From NCBI RefSeq assembly GCF_001425825.1, contig NZ_LMDM01000015.1, positions 62,001-126,000 of the forward strand: 64,000 bases of DNA, given 5' to 3'. Source of the stretch: Rhizobacter sp. Root1238 (lineage in GTDB: Bacteria > Pseudomonadota > Gammaproteobacteria > Burkholderiales > Burkholderiaceae_C). Position 1 is the stretch's first letter. The number at the start of each line of letters is the position of its first letter. A program made the position numbers and the translations under genes. Below the pieces are notes generated by a model, which searched no databases, was not told where the DNA came from, and saw only the letters and a program-made list of their open reading frames with translations. Shown here piece by piece: positions 17,788 to 57,082 of the stretch.

Positions 17788-17816
17788 CCTGAACGTCATT
17801 GCCCCCGGAGAACCGC

Positions 17817-20396
17817 ATGCTTCAAGCCTATCGCCAACATGTTGCCGAACGCGCCGCCCTCGGCATCCCGCCGCTGCCGCTGTCGGCCGCGCAGACCGCC
17901 GAACTGATCGAGCTGCTGAAGGTGCCGCCGGCCGGTGAAGGCGCGAACCTGGTCTACCTGTTGACCCACCGCGTGCCCGCGGGTGTGGACGATGCGGCCA
18001 AGGTGAAGGCCTCGTACCTCGCCGCCGTTGCGCATGGCACCGAACCCAATTCCCTGATTTCCCGCGAGCTGGCGACCGAGCTTCTGGGCACGATGCTCGG
18101 CGGCTACAACATCAGCCCGCTGATCGACCTGCTGGACGACGCCGCGGTAGGCGCCGTCGCCGCCAAGGGCCTGAAGGGCACCTTGCTGATGTTCGACCAG
18201 TTCCACGACGTGAAGGCCAAGGCCGACAAGGGCAACGACCACGCCCGTGCGGTGCTGCAGAGCTGGGCCGATGCCGAATGGTTCACGTCGCGCCCCGAGG
18301 TGCCGGCGTCGATCACCGTCAGCATCTTCAAGGTCGGTGGCGAGACCAACACCGACGACCTGTCGCCGGCGCCCGACGCCTGGAGCCGCCCCGACATCCC
18401 GCTGCATGCACTGGCGATGCTGAAGAACGCGCGCCCCGGCATCACGCCGGAAGAAGACGGCAAGCGCGGCCCGATCAAGTTCATCGAGGATCTGCGCGCC
18501 AAGGGCCACCTGGTGGCCTATGCCGGCGATGTCGTCGGCACCGGCTCCAGCCGCAAGTCGGCCACCAACTCGGTGCTGTGGTTCACCGGCGAAGACATTC
18601 CGTACGTGCCGAACAAGCGTTTCGGCGGCGTGTGCCTGGGCAACAAGATCGCGCCGATCTTCTACAACACGATGGAAGACGCCGGTGCGCTGCCAATCGA
18701 GCTCGACGTCAGCCAGATGGCGATGGGCGACGTGGTCGAGCTGCGCCCGTATGAAGGCAAGGCGCTGAAGAACGGCCAGGTGATCGCCGAGTTCAAGGTC
18801 AAGAGCGAGGTGCTGTTCGACGAGGTGCGCGCCGGTGGCCGCATTCCGCTGATCGTCGGTCGCGGCCTGACCGCGAAGGCGCGCGAGGCGCTGGGCCTGG
18901 CGCCGTCGACGCTGTTCCGCCTGCCGCAGAGCCCGGTCGACACCAAGAAGGGTTACTCGCTGGCGCAGAAGATGGTCGGTAAGGCCTGCGGCCTGCCGGT
19001 CGTCAACGGCCAGCAGCAGGGCGTGCGCCCTGGCACGTACTGCGAGCCGCGCATGACCAGCGTAGGGTCGCAGGACACCACGGGCCCGATGACGCGCGAC
19101 GAGCTGAAGGACCTGGCCTGCCTGGGCTTCAGCGCCGACCTGGTGATGCAGAGCTTCTGCCACACCGCGGCCTACCCGAAGCCGGTCGACGTGAAGATGC
19201 ACCACGAGCTGCCGGAGTTCATCAGCACGCGTGGCGGCATCTCGCTGCGCCCGGGTGACGGCGTGATCCACAGCTGGCTGAACCGTTTCCTGCTGCCCGA
19301 CACCGTCGGCACCGGCGGCGACAGCCACACCCGCTTCCCGATCGGCATCAGCTTCCCGGCAGGTTCCGGCCTGGTGGCGTTCGCGGCCGCCACCGGCGTG
19401 ATGCCGCTGGACATGCCGGAGAGCGTGCTGGTGCGCTTCAAGGGCACGATGCAGCCGGGGGTCACGCTGCGCGACCTGGTCAACGCGATCCCGCTGTATG
19501 CGATCAAGCAAGGCCTGCTGACGGTCGACAAGAAGGGCAAGAAGAACATCTTCTCGGGCCGCATCCTCGAGATCGAAGGGCTGCCCGAGCTGAAGGTGGA
19601 GCAGGCGTTCGAGCTGAGCGACGCGTCGGCCGAGCGTTCGGCGGCCGGCTGCACGGTGCACCTGAACAAGGAACCGATCATCGAGTACATCAACAGCAAC
19701 ATCACGCTGATGAAGTGGATGATCGCGCAGGGGTATGCCGATGCGCGCACGCTGGAGCGCCGCATTGCCGCGCAGGAAGCCTGGCTTGCGAACCCGCAGC
19801 TGCTGAAGGGCGACGCCGATGCCGACTATGCGGCGGTGATCGAGATCGACCTGGCCGACGTGCACGAGCCGATCGTCGCGTGCCCGAACGACCCGGACGA
19901 CGTGAAGACGCTGGCCGAGGTGTCGGGCGCGAAGATCGACGAGGTGTTCATCGGGTCGTGCATGACGAACATCGGCCACTTCCGGGCCGCCAGCAAGCTG
20001 CTCGAGGGCAAGCGCGACATCCCGGTGAAGCTGTGGGTGGCACCGCCGACCAAGATGGACGCGCACCAGCTGACCGAGGAAGGCCACTATGGCGTGCTCG
20101 GCACGGCCGGTGCCCGCATGGAGATGCCGGGCTGCAGCCTGTGCATGGGCAACCAGGCGCAGGTGAAGGAAGGCGCGACGGTGTTCTCGACCAGCACGCG
20201 CAACTTCCCGAACCGGCTGGGCAAGAACAGCAACGTCTACCTCGGCTCGGCCGAGCTGGCGTCGATCTGCTCGAAGCTCGGGCGCATTCCGACGAAGGAC
20301 GAGTACATGGCTGACATGGGGGTGCTGACGGCGGCCTCGGACAAGGTCTACCAGTACCTGAACTTCGACCGGATCAAGGAGTATTCCGAGGCTTGA
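17817..20396 (+). CDS. acnB: Aconitate hydratase B
   Basis: AcnB isomerises citrate to isocitrate through cis-aconitate and in other bacteria also acts as an iron-responsive mRNA-binding protein. The 859-aa product begins [20 protein letters not shown]. It has the HEAT-like N-domain, then the swivel domain ([16 protein letters not shown] onward), then the catalytic domains. The [4Fe-4S] ligands are Cys715 in [11 protein letters not shown] and Cys773/Cys776 in CSLCMGN, close to E. coli 710/769/772. I selected the ATG at 17817 for the canonical N-terminus and upstream GGAG; six extra codons upstream are open. Its 3' side carries one of the nested palindromic elements. Confidence 0.98.
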
Positions 20397-20424: not shown

Positions 20425-20772
20425 AAAGGCGCGGGTGGGGAGGCTGTGGCGCGCCGTCAGGTGCGGTCTTCGCCCCTGGCGGGGCGAAGACTGCCCTGCG
20501 CTGACTGGCTTCATGGCCCGTCGCCGAAACTCCCTCCGCTCACTTCGTTCGCTGTGGTCAAACAGTCGGCGACAGTCAGTCCACGAAGCGCGCTGCGCGC
20601 GCGGGCCATGAATCCAGCCAGCTCCGGCGCCCCCTCCTTATTGGCGCGCCACAGCCTCCCCACCCGCGCCTTTCGCAGTCCACGAAGCGCGCTGCGCGCG
20701 CGGGCCATGAATCCAGCCAGCTCCGGCGCCCCCTCCTTATTGGCGCGCCACAGCCTCCCCACCCGCGCCTTT
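20425..20772 (+). repeat. Nested palindromic 3' element, copy 1 (downstream of acnB)
   Basis: This copy starts 28 bp after the acnB stop. In order it has an outer arm at 20425-20455 (31 bp, perfectly complementary to 20643-20673) and a hairpin at 20466-20491 (11-bp stem, loop TGGC). A middle arm at 20500-20519 pairs with 20603-20622 (18 of 20), and an 8-bp inner arm GTCGCCGA at 20520-20527 pairs with 20566-20573. The inner arms enclose a 38-nt core (20528-20565) starting AACTCCCTCCGCTCACTTCG. A conserved GC-rich linker with AGTCAGTCCACGAAGCGCGC follows the core. The 3' part is tandemly duplicated: 20577-20673 repeats at 20676-20772 (97 bp). I know no named family for it. Confidence 0.9.
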
Positions 20773-20789
20773 GCGAACAACGCTCGCTG

Positions 20790-20873
20790 TGTTGGGGGGA
20801 AAAGACTGAAGTGACCGACAAGCATGCAGGCGTCTGCGCGCTTGTCGGTCACTTCAGTCTTTTCCCCCCAACA
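20790..20873. repeat. 34-bp perfect inverted repeat between the acnB and sbcB elements
   Basis: The arms 20790-20823 and 20840-20873 are perfectly complementary over 34 bp, with a 16-nt loop that contains a further GCAG/CTGC stem. They include a G6/C6 run next to AAAAGACTGAAGTGACCGAC. There is no T-run after the right arm. It sits midway between two oppositely oriented nested elements and between convergent genes, so a bidirectional transcription barrier is one possible role. Confidence 0.85.
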
Positions 20874-20897
20874 AGAGCGGGTGGTGCTTAGCGGCGT

Positions 20898-21132
20898 GGC
20901 GGGTGAGGGGCTGGGCTTGGGGCGATTTCTGAGGCGACGGAGAAGATCGGCTTTGGGGATGGCGCGCGCCAGCGCGCTTCGTAGACTGACTCATCGGCAC
21001 TGTTTGACCACAACGAACGAAGTGAGTGGAGGGAGTTTGCCGATGCATCCCCAAAGCCGATCTTCGCAGTGGAGTCGGCCCGCCAGGGCCGACCGCCTCG
21101 GCATGAGCCCCAAGCCCAGCCCCTCACCCGCC
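20898..21132 (-). repeat. Nested palindromic 3' element, copy 2 (downstream of sbcB)
   Basis: This copy is oriented with sbcB and begins 22 bp after its stop. The outer arms 20898-20923 and 21107-21132 are perfectly complementary (26 bp). The middle arms 20942-20961 and 21046-21065 are perfect (20 bp), as are the inner 8-bp arms CATCGGCA/TGCCGATG (20992-20999, 21038-21045). The extra hairpin at 21074-21093 has loop GCCA, the complement of the copy-1 loop. The 38-nt core (21000-21037) differs from copy 1 at only two sites although all arm sequences differ. Confidence 0.9.
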
Positions 21133-21154: not shown

Positions 21155-22603
21155 TCAGTCCCGATCCGGTGCAATCTCGGTGGCGTAGTCGACCAGCGCA
21201 CCAAGAATGTCCTGCGCCCGTTCATCCTCCGCCAGCGCTTCGGACTCCTGCAGCCCATCGATCCGGTCGAAGAACGCCTGCAGCGTCAGTGCCCCCCCTG
21301 CCCCGTCGTGCAGCTTGTGCACCCGGTGCTCCAGCCACTGCGCCTGCTCGGCCTCGCTGAGCGTCTGCGGGAAGTTGCGCGCCCGATAACGGAACAGGAT
21401 CTCCGCCAGCCGCGGGTCGGCGAATGCCGGCCGCTTGTCGGCCAGCTGCTGCGGCGACAGGCCGCGCAGCCGCTGCAGCGCCTTGCGGTCTTCATTGCCG
21501 ACGAAGCCGCCGTACAGGTCTTCGTCCACGTCCGGCTTCGTGCCCGGCGCCGGCCGCTCGAACACCGCCGGCCACATGCCGGCCAGCAAATGCCCCTGCT
21601 TCGCGGCAAGCTCCGCGTGCGCCATCGCCAGCGGCACGTCGACACCCCACTTCGCCGCCACCGCATCGCTCAGCGTCTTCAGATTGCCGATCACCATCGG
21701 CGACTTGTTGATGTGGATCGTCTTGATCGGCAGCCGCGCCACGCCCTCCGGCAGGTCATCCGCCTTGCTGAACATGCGCAGCCGGATCGTCTCGACGTCC
21801 AGCGTGAACAGCTCCGACGGATCGCTCGCCAGGTCCCACACGATCAATTCGTTCTTGTTGCTCGGGTGCGGCGCCAGCGGCCACACCAGCGCCATGCAGC
21901 CGCGCTCGACGCCGTACATGCCCGAGATGTGCAGGAACGGCCGGCCCACGCCCATCTCCTGGATCACCTCGTCCTTGCGGCGCAGCTTCAGTGCGAAATC
22001 CCACAGCCGCGGCTGGCGTGACTTGATCAGCTTCGCCAGCGCGATGGTCGCCCGCACGTCCGACAAGGCATCGTGCGCCGCTTCGTGCGCCAGCCCGTTC
22101 GCGGCCGTCAGATGCTCCAGCTTGAACGACGGCCGGCCGTCGTCATGCGTCGGCCAGGTGATGCCCTCCGGCCGCAACGCCCAGGTCAGCCGCACCACGT
22201 CGAGCAGATCCCAGCGCCCGCACTGGTTCTGCCACTCGCGCGCGTACGGGTCGATCAGGTTGCGCCAGAACAGGTGGCGCGTGACCTCGTCGTCGAAGCG
22301 GATCGTGTTGTAGCCGACACCGATGGTGCCCGGCTGCGCCAGCTGCGCCTCGATCGCGTCGGCGAACGCATGCTCGGGCACGCCGCGCTCCAGGCAGGTC
22401 TGCGGAAGGATGCCGGTCAGCAGGCACGACTCCGGGTCGGGCAGGTAGTCGGGCGCCGGCTGGCAATACACCATCAGCTCGCCACCGGGCAGCTCGTTCA
22501 GGTCGGCATCGGTGCGGATGCCGGCGAACTGCGCCGGCCGGTCATGGCGCGGCACGCGGCCGAAGGTTTCGTAGTCATGCCAGTAGAACGTGAAATCGGT
22601 CAT
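21155..22603 (-). CDS. sbcB: Exodeoxyribonuclease I
   Basis: ExoI degrades single-stranded DNA 3' to 5' and acts in recombination and mismatch repair. The N-terminus MTDFTFYWHDYETFGRVP contains the DEDD catalytic Asp10 and Glu12, and the later HDALSDVRATIALAKLIK supplies the ExoIII motif His/Asp. An SH3-like and helical C-terminal part follows. From the ATG at 22603 the protein is 482 aa (E. coli 475 aa). An in-frame start three codons upstream is less typical. It is convergent with acnB across about 760 bp of repeats and divergent from the giant octad gene. Confidence 0.93.
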   Translation of the reverse strand: MTDFTFYWHDYETFGRVPRHDRPAQFAGIRTDADLNELPGGELMVYCQPAPDYLPDPESCLLTGILPQTCLERGVPEHAFADAIEAQLAQPGTIGVGYNTIRFDDEVTRHLFWRNLIDPYAREWQNQCGRWDLLDVVRLTWALRPEGITWPTHDDGRPSFKLEHLTAANGLAHEAAHDALSDVRATIALAKLIKSRQPRLWDFALKLRRKDEVIQEMGVGRPFLHISGMYGVERGCMALVWPLAPHPSNKNELIVWDLASDPSELFTLDVETIRLRMFSKADDLPEGVARLPIKTIHINKSPMVIGNLKTLSDAVAAKWGVDVPLAMAHAELAAKQGHLLAGMWPAVFERPAPGTKPDVDEDLYGGFVGNEDRKALQRLRGLSPQQLADKRPAFADPRLAEILFRYRARNFPQTLSEAEQAQWLEHRVHKLHDGAGGALTLQAFFDRIDGLQESEALAEDERAQDILGALVDYATEIAPDRD

Positions 22604-22801
22604 GGCGCGCAATCTACCAGCACCGGCCGAAGCAGACCCAAACCAGACGGATTGCGCAAACAGCGCCGTATCCGCGCCTCATTTGCACCTTAAGGGCAAG
22701 ACACATGTATCCGATATTCCCGTTTGACTGGGTCCGGTTTGGATCAGGTGCACGCACCGCCGCCGACCCCGCAAACGAATTCCACACAAAGGACGCCCTT
22801 C

Positions 22802-53649: not shown

Positions 53650-55077
53650 ATGAAGACGCCCTTCAGCCTGCTCGCATTCGGTGACCTGCTGCGCCGCTAC
53701 GGCCGCGCGCTGCGGCTCGCCTGGGGCGCCCGGGCCGAGCTGGCGCCGCCGCGCCGGCTGCCGCACGAGCTGCAGTTCCTGCCCGCCGCACAGTCGCTGC
53801 AGGAAACCCCGCTGTCGCCGGCGCCGCATGTCGCGATCGGCCTGCTGCTCGGCTTTGCGCTGCTGGCGGTGACCTGGGCCTGCTTCGGCCGGCTCGACAT
53901 CGTCGCGGTCGCGTCCGGCAAGGTGGTGCCGGCCGAAGGCAGCAAGCTGGTGCAGTCGCTCGAGCCCGGCACGGTGCGTGCGATCCGCGTGACCGAAGGC
54001 CAGGCGGTGCGTGCCGGCGACCTGCTCATCGAGCTGGACCTGACGGCCACGCAGGCCGACCTCGACCGCACCGAAGGCGACCTGGCGGCCGCGCGCCTGC
54101 AGGTGGCGCGCGGGCAGGCGCTGCTCGACGCGCTGGCCGGCGGGCGCGACGCGCCGCTGCCGCGACCGCCGTCGGTCGGCGACGGCGCCTTCGACGAAGC
54201 CCGCCGCATGCTGGCCGGCCAGGTCGGCGAGCACCGCGCGCGGCTGGCCCGGCTCGACGCCGAGATGGCGCAGCGCGAGGCGAGTCGCCGCTCGACGCTC
54301 GAATCGGTGCACAAGCTGGAGCAGACGGTGCCGCTGGCGCGCCAGCGCGCGGCCGACCTGAAGGACCTGGTCGACAGGAACTTCGTCTCGCGGCACGGCT
54401 ATCTCGACCGCGAGCAGGCGCGCATCGAGCAGGAAGCCGACCTGGCCGCGTTGACCAGCCGCGTGGCCGAGGTCGATGCCAGCCTGCTGCAATCGCGCCG
54501 GCAGCGCGAGCAGCTGGTGGCCGAGGCGCAGCGCGGCGCCCTCGACGCCATCACCGCGGCGCAGCAGAAGGTGGCGGCACTGGAGCAGGAGCTGCGCAAG
54601 GCGGCGTCGCGGCGCGATGCGCAGCGGCTGCTCGCGCCGGTCGACGGCACTGTGCAGCAGCTGGCGGTGCACACGGTCGGTGGGGTCGTGACGGCGGCGC
54701 AGCCGCTGATGCTGGTGGTGCCGCGCGACATGCCGCTGGAAGTCGAGGCGCTGATCGAGAACCGCGACGTCGGCTTCATTGCGCCGGGCCAGCCGGCCGA
54801 GGTGAAGGTGGAGACGTTTCCGTACACGCGCTACGGCGTGCTGCATGCGCGCGTCGCGTCGGTGTCGAGCGATGCGATCAACGACGACAAGCGCGGGTTG
54901 GTCTATTCGACGCGGGTGCGGCTCGACAGGGGCACGATCGTCGTCGACGGTCGCACGGTACCGTTGAGCGCCGGGATGGCGGTGACGGCCGAGGTGAAGA
55001 TCGGCACGCGGCGCGTGATCGACTTCCTGCTGTCGCCTTTGATCGAACACGCGCTCGAGAGCATGCGGGAACGTTGA
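53650..55077 (+). CDS. Type I secretion periplasmic adaptor, HlyD-like (set 1)
   Basis: The 475-aa adaptor has a cytoplasmic N-terminus, one membrane helix (about 60-82), a lipoyl-like half motif (GKVVPAEGSKLVQSLEPG), a long coiled-coil hairpin (about 130-310), then the second lipoyl half (RLLAPVDGTVQQLAVHTVGG) and beta-barrel domain. It links the HlyB-like ATPase to the TolC-type channel. It is the last gene of the RTX-exporter-adaptor operon, 22 bp after the exporter. Its last codons and stop region match those of the other adaptor gene nearby (CGGGAACGTTGATCGTTCG), and a nested palindromic element starts 21 bp after the stop. Confidence 0.93.
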   Translation: MKTPFSLLAFGDLLRRYGRALRLAWGARAELAPPRRLPHELQFLPAAQSLQETPLSPAPHVAIGLLLGFALLAVTWACFGRLDIVAVASGKVVPAEGSKLVQSLEPGTVRAIRVTEGQAVRAGDLLIELDLTATQADLDRTEGDLAAARLQVARGQALLDALAGGRDAPLPRPPSVGDGAFDEARRMLAGQVGEHRARLARLDAEMAQREASRRSTLESVHKLEQTVPLARQRAADLKDLVDRNFVSRHGYLDREQARIEQEADLAALTSRVAEVDASLLQSRRQREQLVAEAQRGALDAITAAQQKVAALEQELRKAASRRDAQRLLAPVDGTVQQLAVHTVGGVVTAAQPLMLVVPRDMPLEVEALIENRDVGFIAPGQPAEVKVETFPYTRYGVLHARVASVSSDAINDDKRGLVYSTRVRLDRGTIVVDGRTVPLSAGMAVTAEVKIGTRRVIDFLLSPLIEHALESMRER

Positions 55078-55098
55078 TCGTTCGTCTGTGCCGTTGGG

Positions 55099-55436
55099 AA
55101 GGCGCGGGTGGGGAGGCTGCGGCGCGCCGTCGGGGGCGGTCTTCGGCCCCTGGGGGCCGAAGACTTCCCTCCGCTGACTGGCTTCATGGCCCGTCGCCGA
55201 AACTCCCTCCACTCACTTCGTTCGTTGTGGTCAAACAGTCGGCGACAGTCAGTCCACGAACCGCTGACTGGCTTCATGGCCCGTCGCCGAAACTCCCTCC
55301 ACTCACTTCGTTCGTTGTGGTCAAACAGTCGGCGACAGTCAGTCCACGAAGCGTGCTGGCGCACGCGGGCCATGAAGCCAGCCAGCTCCGGCGCCCCCTC
55401 CTTATTGGCGCTCCACAGCCTCCCCACCCGCGCCTT
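55099..55436 (+). repeat. Nested palindromic 3' element, copy 3 (downstream of set 1 adaptor)
   Basis: The outer arms 55099-55128 and 55407-55436 pair over 28 of 30 bp. The hairpin at 55139-55164 has an 11-bp stem (GTCTTCGGCCC/GGGCCGAAGAC). The middle arms 55173-55192 and 55367-55386 pair at 19 of 20. The 38-nt core with its 8-bp arms GTCGCCGA/TCGGCGAC occurs twice (cores 55201-55238 and 55291-55328), because a 90-bp unit is exactly repeated in tandem (55171-55260, 55261-55350). Orientation and order are as in copy 1, and the arms are near-identical to copy 1. Confidence 0.9.
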
Positions 55437-55461
55437 CGACACCACCGTCTCACTAGGAAGG

Positions 55462-55562
55462 TGACAAGCGAACAAGTGGGTGTTGATTCCCGGGTTGGCA
55501 CCCGGGCTACGTGGCTGTCGATGGTCCGAGGGCTTTCTCAACCTTCACTTGTTCGCTTGTCA
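55462..55562. repeat. 17-bp inverted repeat between the two adaptor elements
   Basis: TGACAAGCGAACAAGTG (55462-55478) is exactly complementary to 55546-55562. It encloses 67 bp with a CCCGGG-ttggca-CCCGGG motif. It sits midway between copies 3 and 4 of the nested element, like the 34-bp inverted repeat between acnB and sbcB. Confidence 0.8.
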
Positions 55563-55587
55563 TCCCCAAAGGAGCAGGGCGGTGCGC

Positions 55588-55836
55588 AAAGGCGCGTGGG
55601 GGGAGGCCGTGGAGCGCCAATCAGGGCGGGTCGCCGGAGCTGGCTGGTTTGATGGCCCCGCGCGCAGCGCGTTCGTGAACTGACTGTCGTCGACTGTTTG
55701 ACCACAGCGAACGAAGTGAGCGGAGGGAGTTTCGACGACGGGCCATCGAACCAGCCAGCGGAGGGAAGTCATCGGCCCCGCCAGGGGTCGATGACCGACC
55801 CGTCCGGCGCGCCACGGCCTCCCCCCACGCGCCTTT
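55588..55836 (-). repeat. Nested palindromic 3' element, copy 4 (downstream of set 2 adaptor)
   Basis: This copy is oriented with the minus-strand adaptor gene and begins 19 bp after its stop. The outer arms 55588-55618 and 55806-55836 match at 30 of 31. The middle arms 55639-55658 and 55740-55759 match at 19 of 20. The inner arms GTCGTCGA/TCGACGAC (55686-55693, 55732-55739) are perfect. The core is 55694-55731, and a hairpin at 55768-55795 again has loop GCCA. The inner and hairpin stems have sequences not seen in the other copies, yet remain complementary. Confidence 0.9.
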
Positions 55837-55855
55837 CGAACGCACAGGCGAACGA

Positions 55856-57082
55856 TCAACGTTCCCGAAACGCCTCTTTCGACTTCAGCATCGGCCGCAA
55901 CAAGAAGCTCAGCACCGAGCGTTCCCCGGTGCGCACCTCCACCGACCCGGTCATCCCCGGCAGCACCGTCAGCGGCTTGCCGCGCTCGCGCAGCGTCGAG
56001 CGGTCGGTGCGCAGCATCACGCGATAGTAGGTCTGGTCCGGCGCGGCGGCCTTCTCGGTGTCGCCGAGCGCGTCCGGGCTGATGTATTCGATCTTGCCCT
56101 TCAGCCCGCCGTAGGTCGTGTAGTCGTAGGCCGCGAGCTTGACCTCGGCCGTCTGCCCGACCCGCAGGAAGCCGATCTCCGACGGCTTCACGCGCGCCTC
56201 GATCAGCACGCGCGACGTGATCGGCACGATCTCCATCATCGCGGCGCCCGGGCTGACGACACCCCCCACCGTGACCGAGCGGATGTTCTTCACCAGCCCG
56301 CGCACCGGCGACTTCAGCACCGTGCGGCGCAGCACGTCCTGCCGGCCGGCGAGCTGCTCTTCGATCTGCGCCAGGTCGGTCTGCACCCGCACGAGCTCGG
56401 TGCTCGCATCCTGCCGGAAACGGTTCACGCGCTCCTGCGACTGCAGGTGCAGGTCGTTCACCTGGCGGCGCAAACGCATCACCTCGACTTCGGACATCAG
56501 CCCCTTGGCCGACATCGCCTCCGAGACACCCAGCTCCTTCATCACCAGCTCGATGCTGCGGCTGTTCGAACGCACCGCTTCATCGAGCGCCCGCTTGCGG
56601 GCGTTGTACGCATCGGTCTCCGATTCGACGACGCTCGACAGCGCCGACACGTCGGACGGGAATTGCAGCGCGCGGCCGTTCGCCTCGGCCGTCAGCCGCG
56701 CCACGGTGCCGCGCAGCGCGGCCCGCTTGACCTGGGCTTCGTTCTGTTGCGATTCGAAGCGCGTCGGGTCGAGCTGCGCCAGCTCCTGCCCCTCCTGCAC
56801 CTGCATGCCCTCGCGCACGAACAGCTCGCGCAGGATGCCACCTTCGAGGCTCGCGATCACCTGCTCCTTGCCGTCGGGCACCACCCGGCCGTCGGCACGC
56901 GTGATCTCGTCGACGCGCGCGGTCGACGCCCAGGCGATCGCGACGATCACCGCAACGGCCATCAGGTACAGCGTCCAGGTCGCGCGCGACATGTCGTCCA
57001 TCACCTGCGCGGCGCGGACCTCGCTCAGAAATTTGGCGTCGCCGGACTTCAGCTCGGCTTGTTGCTTCTTCTTGCCGAACAT
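55856..57082 (-). CDS. Type I secretion periplasmic adaptor, LapC/HlyD-like (set 2)
   Basis: The 408-aa adaptor starts MFGKKKQQAELKSGDAKFLS, with one membrane helix (about 36-56), then GRVVPDGKEQVIASLEGGIL as the first lipoyl half, a coiled-coil region (about 105-250) and KSPVRGLVKNIRSVTVGGVV as the second half. Overall it follows the LapC/HlyD family. It is 3 bp downstream of the LapB-like exporter and belongs to the GT41-LapB-LapC operon. The C-terminal residues RER and stop context match the set 1 adaptor. Confidence 0.92.
   Translation of the reverse strand: MFGKKKQQAELKSGDAKFLSEVRAAQVMDDMSRATWTLYLMAVAVIVAIAWASTARVDEITRADGRVVPDGKEQVIASLEGGILRELFVREGMQVQEGQELAQLDPTRFESQQNEAQVKRAALRGTVARLTAEANGRALQFPSDVSALSSVVESETDAYNARKRALDEAVRSNSRSIELVMKELGVSEAMSAKGLMSEVEVMRLRRQVNDLHLQSQERVNRFRQDASTELVRVQTDLAQIEEQLAGRQDVLRRTVLKSPVRGLVKNIRSVTVGGVVSPGAAMMEIVPITSRVLIEARVKPSEIGFLRVGQTAEVKLAAYDYTTYGGLKGKIEYISPDALGDTEKAAAPDQTYYRVMLRTDRSTLRERGKPLTVLPGMTGSVEVRTGERSVLSFLLRPMLKSKEAFRER

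Follow-up and report, generated by a model that had tools for sequence, protein, structure and literature searches.

Two intergenic regions of the Rhizobacter sp. Root1238 genome carry nested palindromes whose arms change from copy to copy yet remain complementary around an almost constant core, raising the question of what kind of repeat holds its shape while its stems vary, and whether it belongs to a named family. The window analysed here is a stretch of 64,000 nucleotides (C15:62001-126000) from a 6.5-Mb draft genome.

Two composites of paired elements

The window contains two intergenic composites of ~700 bp each, at 20425-21132 and 55099-55836, and each consists of two ~235-250-nt elements arranged head-to-head with a central hairpin between them. 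The initial annotation had described four copies sharing one nested-arm layout, and this layout was recovered at all four places. The elements are real, but as units the four copies resolve into two composites, and we take the doublet with two distinct ends, rather than the single copy, as the natural unit. Elements fall into two subfamilies, A and B, with the same layout and different stems: the composite at 20.4-21.1 kb is A + B, and the one at 55.1-55.8 kb is A + A. The core occurs five times in the window, versus a mean of 0.00 in 100 shuffles. Folding gives an outer helix P1 (~31-34 bp), a hairpin P2, P3 (~20 bp), P4 (8 bp) and a hairpin P5, with P4 capped by the ~38-nt core as a loop.

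Features of the window, in order of position:
17799..20396, plus: acnB, left neighbour of composite 1 (TIGR00117, 1472.8 bits)
20425..20673, minus: element A of composite 1, 249 nt, from arm analysis (covariance-model match 20496-20625, 149.7 bits)
20425-20455/20643-20673: P1 of this element, by eye
20463-20494: P2 hairpin, by eye
20500-20519/20603-20622: P3, by eye
20520-20527/20566-20573: P4, by eye
20527..20566, plus as first written: core of this element (the complement being the putative folding strand)
20574-20586: linker, by eye
20588-20602: P5, by eye
20676..20772, no strand assigned: exact second copy of 20577-20673 (97 nt), a probable assembly duplication
20790..20873: central hairpin C1 of composite 1 (40-nt arms, 4-nt loop)
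20898..21132, plus: element B of composite 1, ~235 nt, with its core on the minus strand (covariance-model match 20939-21069, minus, 149.1 bits)
20999..21038, minus: core of this element
21155..22612, minus: exodeoxyribonuclease I (sbcB), encoded convergently on the right of composite 1 (search coordinates 21158-22615)
53650..55077, plus: HlyD-family protein, left neighbour of composite 2
55099..55436, minus: element A of composite 2, which contains an exact 90-nt duplication that lengthens it (covariance-model match 55261-55389, 141.1 bits)
55171-55260 = 55261-55350: this 90-nt duplication, probably from assembly
55462..55562: central hairpin C2 of composite 2
55588..55836, plus: second A-type element of composite 2, with its core at 55693-55732 on the minus strand (covariance-model match 55636-55763, minus, 143.3 bits)
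55856..57082, minus: HlyD-family protein, encoded convergently on the right of composite 2

The C1 and C2 hairpins are themselves repeat families that recur, by eye, in the centres of other composites, and C2 contains a short hairpin that we take to be REP-like. The convergent HlyD gene ends form a 26-nt inverted repeat (96%) that frames composite 2 (55066-55091 / 55842-55867). Elsewhere in the window, a region of very long open reading frame at ~22.7-35.8 kb is rich in internal repeats, which show up as densely overlapping BLAST matches to relatives.

The extents originally given for copies 1 and 3 were too long, as they took in the exact, artefact-like duplications of 97 nt and 90 nt. Exact short-range duplications occur in 15/52 loci of this genome (one of them, L139, of another kind), 9/17 duplications carry N at the joint, and other assemblies show them in 0/8 and 0/57 loci (0/65 outside this draft). 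These duplications are probably scaffolding or assembly artefacts of the draft. Those of ~67-103 nt lie inside elements, in both window composites and at 12 other loci among L108-L159. Elements are also often found at contig ends of draft assemblies.

Clean A units measure 247-252 nt and end in AAAGGCG..CGCCTTT, and B units measure ~235 nt with the outer arm GGCGGGTG; the linker AGTCAGTYCACGA is conserved in Rhizobacter. In some head-to-head pairs from other genera (L243, L252, L256, L264, L306) the same two outer-arm types appear, by eye, to be present; three other loci have another outer sequence (L240, L244, L254), and L266 looks B-like on both sides. One natural chimera (L091, 4250-4379) joins an A-type left half to a B-type right half so that its stems cannot pair; the orthologous site in Rhizobacter sp. 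OV335 (L101) holds a normal composite.

Fold, strand and pairing

Covariation was counted in 102 distinct inner modules, after 9/111 truncated, chimeric or tandem modules had been dropped. P4 is Watson-Crick in 815/816 cells, which bears out the initial claim that arms vary and stay complementary, and P3 in 1906/2040. The core had been described as variable at two sites; these exist, but they are themselves a covarying pair (A-T 59, G-C 43, 0 exceptions), and a second core pair likewise covaries without exception (A-T/G-C 93/9). In 49 of these modules one fold accounts for 96.3% of stem cells, 30/38 pairs have compensatory double changes, and the covariation score is 0.63, versus 0.198 for shuffles (0/500 reach the observed score) and at most 0.141 for slid structures. 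A set of 53 rows from other genomes, four of them opposite-strand shadows, is 91.7% paired with double changes in 35/38 pairs and a score of 0.583 versus 0.134, a result that leans towards the model since the rows were aligned to it. When 32 foreign copies were aligned with MAFFT and folded with RNAalifold, P3, P4, the core pairs and P5 came back, with compensatory change in 26/35 pairs; this set is nearly, not fully, disjoint from the 49 modules, as one row (L240, a Pelomonas-type module) is in both and two rows come from a genome of the home genus (G001). Compensatory base changes, a criterion for structured RNA, are thus present in the home genus and in foreign copies. The initial annotation had left a choice between selection on structure and a copying process that rewrites both arms; the covariation agrees with that proposal. 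Of the two, we prefer selection on structure to arm rewriting alone, given that the stems differ across genera where the core, the linker and often a GNA triloop are conserved.

The strand that folds is probably complementary to the one first written ('AAACTCCC...'), as judged from sequence comparison and modelled stabilities, and would be minus for element A and plus for element B of composite 1. On the written strand, A.C cells outnumber G.T cells in Rhizobacter P3 (79:8), in P1 of A (9 to 4) and in one foreign set counted without the base of P3 (20:6); the other foreign set gives 10:2 in P4, yet 18:18 in P3. Such cells are inherited together, and hence are not independent events. Across three sets of modules the complement is the more stable strand by DNA parameters in 48/49, 44/49 and 35/53; RNA parameters rank it higher in 46/49, 40/49 and 37/53. 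Since RNA parameters prefer the same strand, single-stranded DNA and RNA are not told apart here.

In many foreign copies the complement of the core reads approximately GTYTGA(RCGNAGYGA)x3GTT (consensus by eye). Its central loop is called as C(GNA)G in 49/49, 31/48 and 36/51 copies of three sets, the triloop not being called in about one third of foreign copies. GNA mini-hairpins are described as extraordinarily stable in DNA, with d(GCGAAGC), which has the same C(GNA)G loop as the element core, melting at 78 C; there they are a structural motif and not a repeat family (PMC4686876). We lean towards single-stranded DNA because GNA mini-hairpins are so stable in DNA.

The orientation of the pairs was uniform. 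All 73 opposite-orientation pairs counted by eye run plus then minus on the written strand, that is, head-to-head. They comprise 20 pairs in this genome, 4 in Rhizobacter sp. SG703, at least 10 in OV335 (two with spacings of 1.4 and 2.7 kb) and 39/39 elsewhere (20 of 29 loci in one set, 19 places in the other), six of the 39 (L298-L302, L306) having been chosen because they were already known to have this order. No pairs running minus then plus within 3 kb were present among the matches listed. Single elements (9/29 loci) and same-strand neighbours (L277, L303) also occur. The 35 Rhizobacter composites, counted after removal of four repeated places and with L158 moved to A/B by eye, are 28 A/B, 7 A/A and 0 B/B, versus 16.8, 12.6 and 5.6 expected; the permutation value of 6/100000 for this A/B excess is too optimistic, as some composites are orthologous and were treated as independent.

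Distribution, gain and loss, and cargo

A core scan of a contig collection, in which this genome itself is possibly not represented, found 57 stretches, from OV335, SG703, one Pelomonas and one Burkholderiales MAG. With up to three mismatches, the core pattern had 80 matches in this genome, 17 in SG703 and 55 in OV335; the remaining 37 genomes of the same search had none. Scoring 150 candidates in each genome at E <= 0.001, the covariance model counted 85 in this genome and 58, 18, 17, 15, 9, 8, 8, 8, 0 and 0 in the other ten genomes of the genus. The genome search suggested at the outset therefore yielded many copies with paired arms; they extend well beyond the four first seen, and their arms do not mismatch as by chance.

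Beyond the genus, model R1 (E <= 0.01) matched 80/200 genomes and 58/141 genera of the GTDB family, where no more than 17 candidates were scored in each genome. It matched 10/300 genomes across the order, five of them in two other families (11 candidates scored), and 2/369 across the class, this genome and another member of the home family (9 candidates scored, strict filters), so that this thin class-wide sample had no carrier outside the home family. Rfam gave no match at gathering score in the window or in 20 of 29 foreign loci; a relaxed threshold applied to 781 bases brought up 21 matches, of which 19 were to microRNA-precursor families and none reached gathering.

Individual sites differ between species. 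In this genome the L119 site is occupied by a B-C-A composite of ~730 bp that includes a probable assembly duplication of 90 nt. By eye, the same site holds 66 bp in SG703, including a palindrome that is presumably a GTAG-type REP; 94 bp with another palindrome in G001; 117 bp in OV335, where a similar palindrome is accompanied by a remnant of an A end (~20 nt); and ~660-690 bp of other sequence in G010 and G006. Different palindromic repeats thus lie there in other species (L341, L342, L344), as if it were a shared landing site. The L133 site carries a composite in OV335, a fused P1 remnant in SG703, and no element in the stretch read from G010 and G006. After acnB, the stretch read from four relatives (G010, G006, G001, G009) holds no element and, by eye, an ordinary terminator-like hairpin. 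Remnants include P1 only, P1 + P2 only, a lost B and a swapped A/B half, and since several degenerate sites are deletion remnants, some of the presence/absence polymorphism reflects loss; both gain and loss of elements are likely. The sites compared included no clean empty site or exact insertion junction, and no target-site duplication was seen by eye in the listed A flanks.

Some pairs enclose unrelated genes. In L221 (799-2768), ParA-like and SIR2-like (ThsA-related) genes lie between a B and an A element and possibly form a defence cassette. By eye, two elements in L094 (6120-6910) enclose small ORFs together with the C-terminal tail of an rhs-like gene. Other cargo includes a helix-turn-helix/MqsA-like gene (below cut-off), a LysR-like gene (by eye) and unnamed ORFs. 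A common gene in widely spaced pairs did not emerge from comparing nine cargo stretches, which share only 13-31-residue matches within two locus pairs. A phage or plasmid origin was rejected, with 0 phage matches and no plasmid match but one partial match to a Comamonas plasmid. No mobilising gene was found.

Known repeats and possible explanations

The closest likeness is to REPINs, or REP doublets, which are described as extragenic, multi-copy, inverted doublets of palindromes, non-autonomous and spread within a genome (PMC3116915). The element is also an extragenic, multi-copy, inverted doublet of palindromes, all 73 opposite-orientation pairs being head-to-head, but it has two distinct ends, and each half is a ~240-nt multi-helix unit, not the 20-40 bp given for REPs in PMC3733652, in which a term search for six names found none. 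Neither a 20-40 bp palindrome with a GTAG or CGTC end tag nor, by eye, a GTAG tag at A or B outer ends was found. The Y1 transposase domain PF01797 (E <= 0.001) was undetected in 26/80 element carriers, including the single-contig G117, and in 9/30 genomes with at least 10 element matches, and its presence is not significantly associated with the element across the same 200 genomes (Fisher p 0.14, odds ratio 0.60). A RAYT as mobiliser thus does not seem to be required. The only Y1-type transposase found in this genome (G000:C47:245589-245882, L236), which has dgt-like and gltB-like neighbours (named by eye), matches the RAYT model NF047646 weakly, at 26.2 versus a cut-off of 80 bits. The element works like a REPIN yet fails two of the three REP tests made.

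BIME, ERIC and NEMIS are palindromic repeats often located at gene ends, and the fold, the A/B ends and the strand preference of the element differ from theirs. Integron attC sites are variable in sequence, conserved in structure and used as one folded strand; by description, the element resembles them in keeping structure while sequence varies. Among the matches listed on bacterial repeats, MITEs and structured RNAs, mostly from outside subscription journals, the only near family was BRE, and with a similar journal scope no paper on Burkholderiales repeat families was found, nor anything relevant on Rhizobacter palindromic repeats among the matches listed. Within the literature searched, the element is a real, widespread and apparently unnamed family. 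The initial statement that it has no named family holds at Rfam gathering score and is otherwise not fully settled, since BRE was set apart by its published description, not by sequence.

We tentatively favour, at close to an even chance, large mobile doublets that are non-coding and REPIN-like and form a new family, and whose ends would be recognised as folded single-stranded DNA by an enzyme acting in trans. This reading starts from the observed fold, compensatory conservation, head-to-head geometry, Rhizobacter A/B excess and sampled range, and would add mobility, a REPIN-like nature, the single-stranded state and the enzyme. Each copy would be one end of a doublet (A, short centre or cargo, B). 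Once single-stranded, the complement of the written strand would fold into a fixed multi-helix shape capped by the core hairpin, in many genera built from RCGNAGYGA-like units, and a protein supplied in trans would recognise the folded ends by shape. Such shape recognition is proposed because the stems change only in compensated steps and the core and linker are held. A RAYT-type transposase would be a natural candidate enzyme, although seemingly not required. A bolder version, which we think rather unlikely, is a new transposable class with two different ends read purely as folded single-stranded DNA, through GNA mini-hairpins and sheared G.A pairs, by a so-far-unknown strand-specific enzyme and able to carry genes (the SIR2/ParA defence-like pair, an antitoxin-like gene, the rhs-like tail).

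The same covariation and wobble asymmetry would suit structured non-coding RNAs equally, transcribed outward from the pair centre or within untranslated regions and multiplied by duplication, and RNA folding likewise prefers the complement strand. This explanation is unlikely in our view: wobble is nearly nil in Rhizobacter P4 (1/816 cells), no Rfam family matches at gathering score, neither window composite contains a promoter-like site in a sigma-70-type scan (nor a terminator-like site), and read-out from convergent neighbouring genes would produce the strand that does not fold. The gene context instead draws attention to a BIME-like DNA element used by the host at gene ends, as a bidirectional transcription barrier or a gyrase or nucleoid-protein site. 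Among 31 composites with both flanks called, 15 are convergent, 15 tandem and 1 divergent, a count that rests on a home-made codon-usage gene caller; by eye, the terminator-like hairpin that follows acnB in four relatives is absent where the element sits; and in a home-made scan of 60-140 kb per genome, terminator-like sites number 1.15-1.83 per 10 kb in three element-rich genomes versus 2.2-2.6 in three others of the genus. However, G001, with 18 matches, has a density of 2.5, neither window composite has a terminator-like site, copy number is patchy within one genus (0 to 85), and the strand preference is left unexplained, so we regard a host role of this kind as distinctly unlikely.

Two further explanations carry little weight. 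That the element is, or contains, BRE, the Beta-proteobacterial repeat element of Hot et al. 2011, is very unlikely. BRE is described as a repeat of 75-91 bp with suspected mobility, multi-copy and for the most part intergenic, known from Bordetella, several Comamonadaceae and Azoarcus (PMC3110155), and the element is similar in belonging to the same order and in being mostly intergenic, G+C-rich and species-variable. BRE repeats are, however, often in tandem with no or few bases between them in that account, whereas the element unit is 235-250 nt in inverted pairs; no two same-strand model matches lay within 300 nt in 29 + 36 sources, and no tandem arrays of 75-91 bp appeared among model-fold copies and exact duplications. 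Passive copying, in which template switching in functionless quasi-palindromes matches the arms, would account for arms that are nearly perfect, and the chimera, the P1-only remnants and the deletions show that the palindromes are rewritten; but arm copying alone would not keep the core and linker conserved across genera, and the geometry and A/B pairing are non-random, which leaves this explanation already disfavoured and highly improbable.

If the favoured reading of REPIN-like doublets recognised as folded single strands is right, dozens of Burkholderiales genera would have in common a structured repeat, apparently unnamed, that evolves as the shape of a single strand dictates. Its hundreds of natural variants would allow study of how bacteria use or tolerate folded single-stranded DNA, and the repeat would let GNA mini-hairpins be tested in vivo and point the way to a so-far-unknown mobilising enzyme.
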